This document shows, in pieces, positions 2 to 11,219 of a stretch of DNA of 64,000 nt (its first letter is position 1; each line of letters opens with the position of its first letter). This stretch comes from Bradyrhizobiaceae bacterium (GTDB lineage: Bacteria; Pseudomonadota; Alphaproteobacteria; Rhizobiales; Xanthobacteraceae): the NCBI GenBank assembly GCA_003963435.1, contig RXJC01000250.1, positions 1-64,000 on the forward strand. Reading direction: 5' to 3'. The notes under the pieces were generated by a model. It was given only the letters and a program-made list of their open reading frames with translations, ran no database searches and had not been told where the DNA came from. The translations under genes and the position numbers were made by a program.

Positions 2-211
2 ATCCGACATGGCGGCGACAAGGCATTTTTCGCGCCGGCGCTCGATCTCATCCAGATGCCGCCATTCGAGAGCTTCCGTGACGCGGAGAGCTACGCCGCC
101 ACGCTCGCGCACGAATGCGTGCATTGGACTGCGCCGGCGCACCGCGTCAATCGCGACCTCAGCCGTTACGCCAAAGATCGGAGCGAGCGTGCCCGCGAAG
201 AGCTGGTCGCC
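2..211 (+). pseudogene. ardC: ArdC-type antirestriction protein, internal fragment (piece 1 of a split ardC; open at window edge)
   Basis: Frame 2 reads IRHGGDKAFFAPALDLIQMPPFESFRDAESYAATLAHECVHWTAPAHRVNRDLSRYAKDRSERAREELVA; HECVH zincin motif; stops matching at 211 where an inverted repeat begins. Confidence 0.85.
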
Positions 212-453
212 TTATCTTGACAGTCTGCACCGACTCTCAGCGTCTTGCTTACGTCGATGCAACAGGACTGACGGAGGCGGTAGGTCTTGTCCCCACGTGT
301 GGTGAGCTCGGTGGAGCAAAGCCGTCCGCACGCGCGCCATCCAATAGCGCCGTAGCGGGCGGACGGCTTTGCGGTGCTCACCGCCGGCCGTAGCGTTCCC
401 ACATAGCTGGCGACGGCCGGCCTGGATAGCGCCGGGCAAGTTGAACTCCTTCG

Positions 454-1896
454 TTGATGCTGGCTCCCCGGATGGGGGTCCGGGGGAAGGTTGAACAACT
501 TGTGGACAACGTAGCGCCGGCTTTGAACATCACCATTCAAGAGCGCCGATCGGCTGACGGCCTTGATGCACACGTCCCTATGATCCTGCGGGACGGGGCA
601 CTCTACGATCCTGATCTGGATCGCTTCTTCCGCGACCTTCCCCTCAACGGCGTCCGCTCACGGCACTCCCTTCGTGCGTATGGCTATGACGTCCTGGTCT
701 GGGTCCGCTTTCTTTCGGAAGCCTGCGGCAAGTCCGTATGGCAAGGTGATCGTCGCGACGTCCTTGCCTATCATCGCGTTCGTCGCCGGACGGAGGCCGG
801 CCAACGTATCTCCGCGGCGTCCTGGAATCGAGCTGTTGCCTGTCTCGATCGGCTCTATCGTTGGGGCGTTCACGAAGGCTTGCTCCCTGAAGCACCGTTC
901 ACGCACCGCTCGGTTTGGAGGCAAGGATACGGCGGTCGGCGTGCGCAGATTACAGCCCGCAATGACGCCTATGAGCCGGCTGCACGTCGAGCAGATGTCA
1001 GCTTTGTCACGCTCGATGACTACCGGGTATTTCGGGACGTCGGCCTCAGAGGGCTTATGCCTGATGGCGGAGCGCGGCCGGGAGCGCGTGATCGCAACGG
1101 CATTCGCAATGCGTTGTTTTCCGACATCGTTGTGACGACGGGCCTTCGGCTGGAGGAAGCCTCCTTTCTGTTTGCATCCGACCTTGCTGCCGTGGATCGG
1201 CGAACAGCTCGACAGGTATGGCTCGATCTACCGGACGCGCTGACGAAGGGCGATCGTGGTCGCCAGATTCTTCTTTCCGGTCGACTGCTTGAACAGGCGC
1301 GGGCCTACATCGCGGTTGAACGAGCTCACGCCGTCACTAAGTTCCGACAACGCTCCGGCTGGCGCTCGTACGAACGCCCGATCTTCGTTCACAGGGAGCG
1401 GTCAGCTTCCCGGTTGCGACTACTCGACGGGAGTGACGTCGTTCTTGATCTGCTGAGCCCCGAAGAGCGCAGCAGGATCATCGTCTGTGATGATGACGGT
1501 ACACCGGGCGAGCCCGCCGTGCTGTGGCTCACGGAAGTCGGATTGCCAGTTCAACCGAACTCCTGGGAGGTGATCTTCGCCCGGGCATCCGAGCGGTGCA
1601 GGTCTCTCAGCTTTTCCGTCAACATCACGCCGCACCAGCTCCGCCATACCTTTGCCGTGCATATGCTCGCGATGCTGATCCAGCAGCGGATTCGAGATGC
1701 AGCGTTGCCCGCTGGCCCGATCGAAGGATATCGGCAGATCCTCGGCGATCCACTCCAGCAAGTGCAACGGCTGCTTGGCCACGCCAGCCTTGCAACGACC
1801 TACATCTATCTCGATCACATCGCTTCGCGCGCCGATACCGTTGATGCAGCCGTCGAGGAGTTACTGGCGCTGCTTCCCTCGGAGCACTCGTTATGA
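454..1896 (+). CDS. Tyrosine recombinase/integrase, first of trio (GinA-like)
   Basis: 480 aa; box I TTGLRLEEASF, box II HQLRHTFAVHML, LLGHASLATTYIYLDH. Confidence 0.85.
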   Translation: MMLAPRMGVRGKVEQLVDNVAPALNITIQERRSADGLDAHVPMILRDGALYDPDLDRFFRDLPLNGVRSRHSLRAYGYDVLVWVRFLSEACGKSVWQGDRRDVLAYHRVRRRTEAGQRISAASWNRAVACLDRLYRWGVHEGLLPEAPFTHRSVWRQGYGGRRAQITARNDAYEPAARRADVSFVTLDDYRVFRDVGLRGLMPDGGARPGARDRNGIRNALFSDIVVTTGLRLEEASFLFASDLAAVDRRTARQVWLDLPDALTKGDRGRQILLSGRLLEQARAYIAVERAHAVTKFRQRSGWRSYERPIFVHRERSASRLRLLDGSDVVLDLLSPEERSRIIVCDDDGTPGEPAVLWLTEVGLPVQPNSWEVIFARASERCRSLSFSVNITPHQLRHTFAVHMLAMLIQQRIRDAALPAGPIEGYRQILGDPLQQVQRLLGHASLATTYIYLDHIASRADTVDAAVEELLALLPSEHSL

Positions 1897-3677
1897 GAGG
1901 CCGGCCGCGGAAGGGAACTTCAGTTCGTTTTGCGCCCGCAGATGGTGTTGTTCCAGCTCATGCCGGTGACCAGTTGCTCGGACTGCGCTTCAACATTGAG
2001 GCGCGTCATGGCGGGATCGTCGAGGTCGATCTCACCAGCCTGAGCCCGCGAGCACTTGCGATAGCCTTTGCCGGTGCTGTTCGCCGACAGGCTGAACTCG
2101 GCGGGGCGTTGGGAGCGCGCTGCACCATCATGCAGCACATTACGGCATATCGTAAGTTTTTCGCATACCTGCGAGCCCATTCTCATGCCACGAAGCCGGC
2201 TGATCTTCGCGCGCAGGATATTGACGGATTCGAAGCCTCCCTTGAGGCCGGCGGCATGACGCCGATCCATCGGCACACGGTCCTCGCGAAGGCGATTCTG
2301 GCGCTGCGCTCTATCGATGCCGATCAACCCGGCCTTCTCGACGATAAGCTCCGCCATCGCCTGAGCTACACCAGCGCGCAATCCGCAGGACGGTCGCAAC
2401 CCCGCGACGCATATAGTCCGTTCGTCGCTCGTCAGCTACGTGACGCGGCTCGCGCCGATATCGGCAAAATATTCCGACGTATCGGCCGCCCGCTCGACGA
2501 AGCCATTGATTCCAACCTCCGCAGCGCAGTCGCCGATGTTGAAGCCAGGATTGCCGCTGAAGGCAAGATCGAGCACTCGGACCTCGCCTTCAAACGCCTG
2601 TACTTCATGCGCCTGCGACGGGGCCTGCCGGTTTCGAGCTTTTCCGAAGATGTCCATAACCGCCATCATTTGCTCGCAACCGATCTGCCGCCACTGCTGA
2701 CGTTCCTGTCATTAGAGACAGGGCTCGAGATCGAATGCTGCAAGGCGCTGACCATCGATTGTTTGCAGAGTCCAGAGTCCGGGACGATCGAGATCCGCTA
2801 CATAAAGCGTCGCGCGCGTGGTGCCGAGCAGAAGCGTCTGCGAGTTCGTGATGGCGGCCTCGGTACGCCTGGCGGATTGATCCGCAAGCTGATCGAGGTG
2901 ACTAGCTTTACCAGGCGCTTTCTTCCGGTCGAGTCTCTCTGGGTCTATCATTATAAAGGGCGAGGACAGCTCCGGTCCGGCATCGATCACCCGCATCAGT
3001 TGGTGGACAACTGGGTCGCTGGACACGGCATCGTCGACGACGATCGCCGTCCGCTACACCTTGTTCTCTCCCGGCTGCGCAAAACACATAAGGCACTCTG
3101 GTATCTCAAGACCGAAGGGCACATGGCGCGCTTTGCCGTCGGCCACACGCCGGAGATCGCCGCTCGTCACTATGCGGATATTCCGTCACTGCGCCCTTTG
3201 CATGAAGCCACCGTCGCCGAGGCGCTCACGGAAGTTGTCGCGTCCGCAGGACCGATCGTTCTGTCACCCGACAGCGAGTCCCTTTGGCGCGAGGGTGCTG
3301 ACGCCCCTGTGCAGATCAATAACATTCCCGCGCTCCTGGATGGAGATCAGGACGTCTGGCTCGCGGCGTGCGCGGGCTTTCAGAATAGCCCCTTCGCCGA
3401 AGCAGGCTCACCCTGTCCGCAGCCATTCTGGGGTTGCCTGGAATGCCGCAACGCGGTCATCACGGCTCGCAAGCTGCCAGCGATCCTCGCGTTTCTCGAC
3501 TTTATCGAGGGCGAGCGCGCCGGGCTCTCTGCGGCCGACTGGAGCATCAAGTTCGGTCGCGCGCATGCACGCATCACACAACAGATTCTGCCCGTCTTCT
3601 CTGAACGTTTGATCGCCCAAGCGCGCAGCGAGGCCACCCAACAATCTCTCTATCTTCCGCCCGAGGTGCGGCCATGA
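1893..3677 (+). CDS. Tyrosine recombinase-like protein, second of trio (GinB-like)
   Basis: 594 aa; ATGA overlap with upstream gene; VGHTPEIAARHYADI C-terminal box; Cys-rich tail CPQPFWGCLECRNAV. Confidence 0.75.
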   Translation: MRGRPRKGTSVRFAPADGVVPAHAGDQLLGLRFNIEARHGGIVEVDLTSLSPRALAIAFAGAVRRQAELGGALGARCTIMQHITAYRKFFAYLRAHSHATKPADLRAQDIDGFEASLEAGGMTPIHRHTVLAKAILALRSIDADQPGLLDDKLRHRLSYTSAQSAGRSQPRDAYSPFVARQLRDAARADIGKIFRRIGRPLDEAIDSNLRSAVADVEARIAAEGKIEHSDLAFKRLYFMRLRRGLPVSSFSEDVHNRHHLLATDLPPLLTFLSLETGLEIECCKALTIDCLQSPESGTIEIRYIKRRARGAEQKRLRVRDGGLGTPGGLIRKLIEVTSFTRRFLPVESLWVYHYKGRGQLRSGIDHPHQLVDNWVAGHGIVDDDRRPLHLVLSRLRKTHKALWYLKTEGHMARFAVGHTPEIAARHYADIPSLRPLHEATVAEALTEVVASAGPIVLSPDSESLWREGADAPVQINNIPALLDGDQDVWLAACAGFQNSPFAEAGSPCPQPFWGCLECRNAVITARKLPAILAFLDFIEGERAGLSAADWSIKFGRAHARITQQILPVFSERLIAQARSEATQQSLYLPPEVRP

Positions 3678-10961: not shown

Positions 10962-11077
10962 TGGTTCCTCTGCTTGTCAAAACGACAGCAAAGGTCCGGC
11001 AGAAAATAATGCTGAGCAAATCCCGTCCGCAAAAGCTGATTTCTGCGGTTTTCAGGCGGTGCAGCCGCTTTCCTTCT

Positions 11078-11101
11078 CATTATGGGCTGCTGCGGATAAC
11101 T
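11078..11101. repeat. RIT right inverted repeat
   Basis: cattatgggctgctgcggataact; exact reverse complement of 7278-7301. Confidence 0.9.
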
Positions 11102-11219
11102 GCAGGTCCTGCAGGGCGACAAGCGAGCGGTTTTCCAGGCCGCCGCACATGCGCAGCGCGCCGCCGCGTTTCTGCACGGTCTCCAGCCGGCTGAGACCGC
11201 AGAGCGGGAGGCAGCGTGA
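11100..11219 (+). pseudogene. ardC: ArdC C-terminal fragment (piece 3 of split ardC)
   Basis: LQVLQGDKRAVFQAAAHAQRAAAFLHGLQPAETAEREAA*; continues ..SYVESWL of piece 2. Confidence 0.85.

Follow-up and report, generated by a model that had tools for sequence, protein, structure and literature searches.

The first 11,219 positions of a 64,000-nucleotide stretch of a Bradyrhizobiaceae genome (GenBank assembly GCA_003963435.1, contig RXJC01000250.1; hereafter the window) contain a gene for the antirestriction protein ArdC that is split by two different elements, each with three tyrosine recombinase genes. The locus raises the question of what brings two such recombinase trios into a single gene. 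Our analysis indicates, with high probability, that ardC serves as a hub in which three-tyrosine-recombinase elements land at three different codons, and that the first element of the window, element 1, performs an ardC-for-ardC swap.

The three segments are collinear parts of a single ardC, all on the forward strand. Piece 1 (2-211) encodes the metallopeptidase domain as far as EELVA, the glutamate-helix motif (Pfam PF18818, profile positions 14-82, E 1.1e-23). Piece 2 (7158-7247; EIGSALMC...SYVESW, ending at TGG) matches residues 238-281 of the Shinella ArdC by tblastn; for piece 3 (11100-11219), the C-terminus (...QGDK...EREAA and a stop), the tblastn match covers ArdC residues 270-299. The window opens inside ardC, at the very start of a 64,725-bp contig, and the 5' half of the gene lies outside. 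Splicing at the mapped cores yields an uninterrupted ArdC C-terminal frame of 139 residues with the expected stop. In a search of plasmid records, the joined 420 bp aligned with plasmid ardC without a gap, over positions 1-420 in a single block; 568 records matched, 393 of them covering at least 80% at one place, and the best intact match, from Ancylobacter polymorphus, is of equal length and 82.4% identical. As the spliced pieces align without a gap to intact ardC, chance collinearity is excluded. An earlier note on this DNA had proposed exactly this, a single ardC in three pieces with two types of recombinase trio about 95 bp apart, and had suggested comparing the splice with intact genes; the comparison bears it out, the splice being collinear across both junctions. 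Its further statement that the frame is continuous with nothing missing needs a correction: the frame is continuous, but plain joining of the pieces as it delimited them gives one extra leucine, because the cores are common to both sides. The note also recognized both trio elements but did not mention the complete second ardC inside element 1 (6190-7095). That the arrangement is an assembly or binning artefact joining unrelated pieces might be suspected, given that the assembly has 724 contigs and the contig of the window begins within ardC; however, every junction is base-precise and complete plasmids such as Sphingobium herbicidovorans pMSHV have the same arrangement, a single ardC holding the two types of element, which makes such an artefact very improbable.

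Element 1 (212-7151, 6,940 bp, forward strand) is a GInt-like three-recombinase element with imperfect inverted repeats at its ends, TTATCTTGACAGTCTGC ... CTGTCAGGATAT, and the same ends recur in dozens of loci. Its genes, all on the forward strand, are a ginA-like tyrosine recombinase (454-1896, 480 aa; TGLR, HQLRH and LGHAS..Y boxes; PF00589/PF02899), a ginB-like recombinase recognized by its likeness to GinB with no Pfam match (1893-3677, 594 aa; 4-bp overlap with ginA), a ginC-like recombinase recognized by its likeness to GinC (3674-5839, 721 aa; 4-bp overlap with ginB) and a cargo ardC (6190-7095) for a complete 301-aa ArdC with the single-stranded DNA (ssDNA)-binding PF08401 and metallopeptidase PF18818 domains, whose core region reads EEATAE. 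A 6-bp core, GTCGCC, stands at either end, on the left as the final six bases of ardC piece 1 (206-211, forward strand) and on the right at 7152-7157 (forward strand). Relative to an operon of Klebsiella pneumoniae pKPN-8c6e (397/599/645/149 aa), which we count as a GInt purely on its layout, the element-1 proteins are 30% (GinA, E 3e-46), 24% (GinB, E 1e-28) and 35% (GinC, E 3e-62) identical, in the same order. Element 1 thus shares with GInts the order and homology of ginA-ginB-ginC, the overlapping genes, the downstream cargo and, with a 6-bp core at both ends at one ardC codon, site-specific integration into a conserved gene with short direct repeats.

GInts have four essential genes, the fourth being ginD (Bardaji et al. 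2017, PMC5385486). With the ginD-sized fourth ORF of the pKPN-8c6e operon as query, no significant match to GinD was found in any element-1 locus; in most loci the ardC match starts 87-370 bases past the ginC match, and the shorter of these gaps are too small for ginD. As ginD is missing and ardC follows ginC instead, element 1 lies outside the strict four-gene definition (PMC5385486) and, judged by its gene content, is GInt-like rather than a full GInt. It differs further in targeting one internal ardC codon, which breaks the product, and in being mostly compact, at about 6.9 kb, although some relatives are several kb larger. A GinC that lacks the first arginine or the catalytic tyrosine is among the traits used to recognize GInts; the element-1 GinC has, judged by eye, apparently full tyrosine recombinase boxes (TGMR, RQFRR and KHAS..Y). 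A 2023 survey did not find ginC-ginD blocks in Alphaproteobacteria (PMC10214605).

Plasmid and genome-contig searches gave us about 90 related loci, found by similarity to the ginC of the window. Among the relatives with a left flank of at least 60 bp, 58 of 59 have it in ardC at one codon (54 with an ardC match ending at that codon, and L057, L068, L073 and L080 by eye), the remaining one being pTi2788; the right flanks are ardC in 54 of 54. Rhizobia, sphingomonads and rhodobacters are among the groups represented. In host genes the core reads RTNGCN and makes up the final two codons of ExxA, the glutamate-helix motif. E229 is a metal ligand in the ArdC of R388 (PMC7213743), and in our reading of the sequences the EE of EELVA would be E228/E229 of that protein, placing the core next to the ligand. 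ardC had been put forward earlier as a preferred landing pad of a plasmid or integrative and conjugative element backbone. The preference is stronger than had been claimed, but it is tied to ardC itself, in alphaproteobacterial genomes and plasmids alike, rather than to such a backbone; among the ten large window ORFs compared with Pfam, none is a conjugation gene. When 395 genomes from across the Alphaproteobacteria were searched with the GinA-like protein (E 1e-40), only the genome of the window itself matched. The same genome holds a distant element-1 type (L014, G000:C1:1-18000), with proteins 44-48% identical, which likewise interrupts ardC at this codon and carries a cargo ardC and about 4 kb of further cargo; it is one of the larger elements.

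Element 1 has moved recently. The copy in the window recurs 100% identical in a Beijerinckiaceae metagenome-assembled genome and in Nitrobacter 62-23; the right ends of these two lie in two further ardC alleles, and the ends of the identical copies in three other alleles. Sphingobium 15-1 has three copies identical over 6,890 bp, and many contigs of 6.5-7 kb start or stop at element-1 tips, as is expected for multi-copy repeats. One of the Sphingobium 15-1 copies (L096) forms a filled/empty pair with an ardC from another genome (L133): the joined flanks of the former agree with the empty gene at 1,442 of 1,442 positions. L096 retains the native GTGGCT on its left and has gained GTGGCG on its right; the empty site rejects the opposite assignment, in which the right core would be the native one. 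The right core of L096 recurs as the left core of a second copy, L094, whose own right core, GTAGCG, is found on the left of the third, L095; these matches give the order L095 to L094 to L096. In Sphingobium DEHP117, GTGGCC is the right core in five of six copies and also occurs there as a left core.

This 6-bp footprint has a known counterpart. In strand-biased circularizing integrative elements (SEs), the native 6 bp lies on the left, and the right end bears 6 bp that came from the left flank of the donor (PMC10214605), and element 1 follows the same rule, with the native core left and the donor core right, in both the L096/L133 pair and the L095-L094-L096 chain. By the description of their gene sets the two stand apart, SEs having intA-tfp-intB-srap and element 1 being of the ginABC type with no small fourth gene. 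Another parallel is the Tn554 family, whose att site lies in radC: these too are tyrosine-recombinase transposons that use one fixed site within a conserved protein-coding gene and show a 6-bp footprint, but they have another recombinase set and do not replace the target gene with a carried copy. We propose that element 1 belongs to a GInt-like family without ginD that is common among Alphaproteobacteria and would recognize the ExxA codons (core RTNGCN) and enter colinear with the gene by exchange at the 6-bp core, the native 6 bp staying on its left and the carried 6 bp being deposited on its right; a copy-out/copy-in route would probably underlie this.

The cargo ardC, present in 52 of 54 elements and then always next after ginC, would replace the gene that the element breaks. 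In a tree of 71 ArdC proteins all cargo ArdCs form one clade (SH-aLRT 98), while the targets are scattered; the only host-side sequence in this clade, L050, is a cargo-type ardC that was itself struck by a second element. With dN/dS of 0.04-0.28 among relatives, the cargo ardC is under purifying selection, and this together with the single clade rules out a random passenger. At the L050 locus (5276-13899) the insertion is nested: the struck cargo-type ardC belongs to another element that has apparently lost its recombinase genes, and there are two tandem right ends. The cargo copy may restore the lost function or protect against further insertion.

The second of these can be put more sharply. 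The cargo ardC may be a copy recoded at the attachment (att) site that keeps ArdC function, has lost the RTNGCN core and so keeps sister elements out. RTNGCN is missing in 75 of 77 cargo ardCs (which have ACCGCC, TGCGTG, TGCGCC and others) and present in 13 of 15 intact host ardCs, and the only struck cargo-type ardC, that of L050, has an RTNGCN core, ATTGCC; the loss of the motif suggests self-immunity. However, with all cargo ardCs in a single clade these counts lack independence, about five right cores agree with cores of the cargo type, a hint that such genes can receive elements, and RIT elements, the class to which the second trio of the window belongs, do enter the cargo ardC. We regard self-immunity as a tentative explanation, somewhat less probable than its opposite. 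A different suggestion is that the ssDNA-binding ArdC, occupying fourth place, substitutes for ginD as a working part of the recombination machinery. Such a role would fit the lack here of a gene that is essential in GInts (PMC5385486), and the constant position of one ardC clade directly after ginC; but two elements without a cargo ardC (L046 and L051) are integrated alike, ArdC does not resemble the small GinD in sequence, and antirestriction on entry is reason enough to carry ardC, so that we consider this doubtful. More doubtful still is a combination of the two, a family built on a single gene that would recognize and break ardC at its catalytic codons, install a recoded ardC immune to its sisters and use ArdC in place of ginD.

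Against our preferred reading, that element 1 swaps one ardC for another at a fixed codon, several points have to be weighed. Among the close relatives of element 1, only one copy was found away from ardC, on the Agrobacterium Ti plasmid pTi2788 (L019, about 2597 and 10366), which lies outside ardC and has no cargo ardC. More distant relatives than those detected with ginC may behave otherwise. Seven of the 54 right cores (L059, L061, L038, L042, L080, L091 and L110) are not RTNGCN, reading TGCGCC, ACCGCC, ACGGCC or CGAGCC, and are not predicted by the simple footprint rule; most match cargo-type cores, and the intact ardCs closest to L061 carry Cys-Ala cores, so that in L061 the right core may be the native one. 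Finally, antirestriction by the ArdC of R388 does not depend on the protease site (PMC7213743); a broken host ArdC keeps the ssDNA-binding domain and may still work, needing no rescue, so that we can only infer rescue by the cargo copy. The pTi2788 relative has an acyltransferase gene as cargo.

The second trio is a RIT element (element 2; 7280-11099, 3,820 bp, reverse strand) with terminal inverted repeats TTATCCGCAGCAGCCCATAATG, its 22-bp arms being identical at both ends. Its three adjacent tyrosine recombinase genes, all on the reverse strand, are of the ritA (9726-10961, 411 aa; PF00589), ritB (8365-9729, 454 aa; PF00589; relatives in 101 plasmid records) and ritC types (7364-8398, 344 aa; PF00589, E 1.2e-29; 89.5% identity in a Paracoccus RIT), in the order ritA-ritB-ritC with overlaps of 4 and 34 bp. 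RIT elements (PMC3414803) are likewise marked by three adjacent, overlapping genes of this kind, a size of about 3.5 kb and terminal inverted repeats; element 2 differs in its strict ardC target codon and in having an outer arm of 20 bp set between two cores of 6 bp. Its left junction (7248-7279) consists of the core CTGACC (7248-7253), the outer arm TTATGACGAGGTGAGCATAA (7254-7273) and the 6 bp TTCGAG, after which come the RIT itself and the right core CTGCAG (11100-11105), the first six bases of ardC piece 3. Copies in Paracoccus and Sphingobium have the same layout.

Element 2 lies after the conserved tryptophan of an SWL motif. The same codon is used in two Paracoccus plasmids, one per orientation, in S. 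herbicidovorans and in Sphingobium YC-XJ3 (L012, L013, L022 and L023), and by 13 of 13 RIT copies in Sphingobium DEHP117, two of which are truncated where a contig ends; in that genome the host gene and the cargo ardC are both struck. The proposed landing pad thus exists on the RIT side too, at one other ardC codon, although it is only the ardC-type branch that is fixed on it. We rejected the idea that all RITs target ardC, because relatives with other RitA types lie in other genes: L025, L026 and L027, joined on the strength of similar flanks by L028-L032, are in an IS110-family transposase gene at one codon, after ...YVKPYVK/YVKPFVK, and L024 and L033 are in a strawberry-notch helicase gene. 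The target follows the RitA and RitB phylogeny with the fewest possible changes. RIT target specificity had been listed as not tested (PMC10214605).

In three loci (L043:2057-6600, L073:3120-6700 and L080:1900-6650) ardC is split at the HExxH codons by yet another trio, which is RIT-like but divergent, its RitC being about 40% identical; it has a palindromic outer arm, TTATGCCGATATCGGCATAA, and lies upstream of a ginABC element in the same ardC. Both element types of the window also occur within one ardC in pMSHV and Sphingobium YC-XJ3, and thus the arrangement is recurrent. On Sphingomonas MEA3-1 pMEA04 (L011:4-12197) a RIT lies between two inverted element-1 right ends with cargo ardC and ginC, either a real palindrome or an assembly fault. 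From the window alone, one might suppose that two unselective elements fell 90 bp apart into one dispensable gene by plain coincidence. Nothing further speaks for this, and identical codons are used in dozens of ardC alleles by element 1 and in several genera by both families, which leaves the idea next to no probability; since both elements are site-specific, with fixed insertion codons, random co-landing is excluded. We suggest instead that ardC is a dedicated landing gene in which each trio family would use one fixed codon, set within a conserved motif of ArdC, and that an ardC-specific RIT branch, before or after element 1, took a second codon in the gene's 3' part, past the tryptophan of SWL.

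Elements 1 and 2 are variants of already known kinds with unusual features. In the open-access literature we found nothing on ardC as an insertion site of recombinase trios. Element 1 adds a widespread alphaproteobacterial GInt-like branch that has a fixed target, carries a replacement copy of it and shows readable 6-bp footprints, from which the order of donors and recipients can be traced by sequence alone, and the RIT elements gain a defined target site. An antirestriction gene of conjugative plasmids would thus act as a hub, with landing sites at three codons. Such a hub would account for many truncated ArdC proteins in the databases, and its codons would be predictable natural integration sites.

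Elsewhere in the window, a dnaE2-type DNA polymerase III alpha gene stands beside an imuB-like gene (30212-35208, reverse strand) in what Pfam matches point to as a mutagenesis cassette. At 45952-49233 (forward strand) there is an RND efflux pump gene (ACR_tran), and two small adjacent ORFs at 13139-13920 (reverse strand) form, judged by eye, a putative antitoxin-PIN toxin pair.

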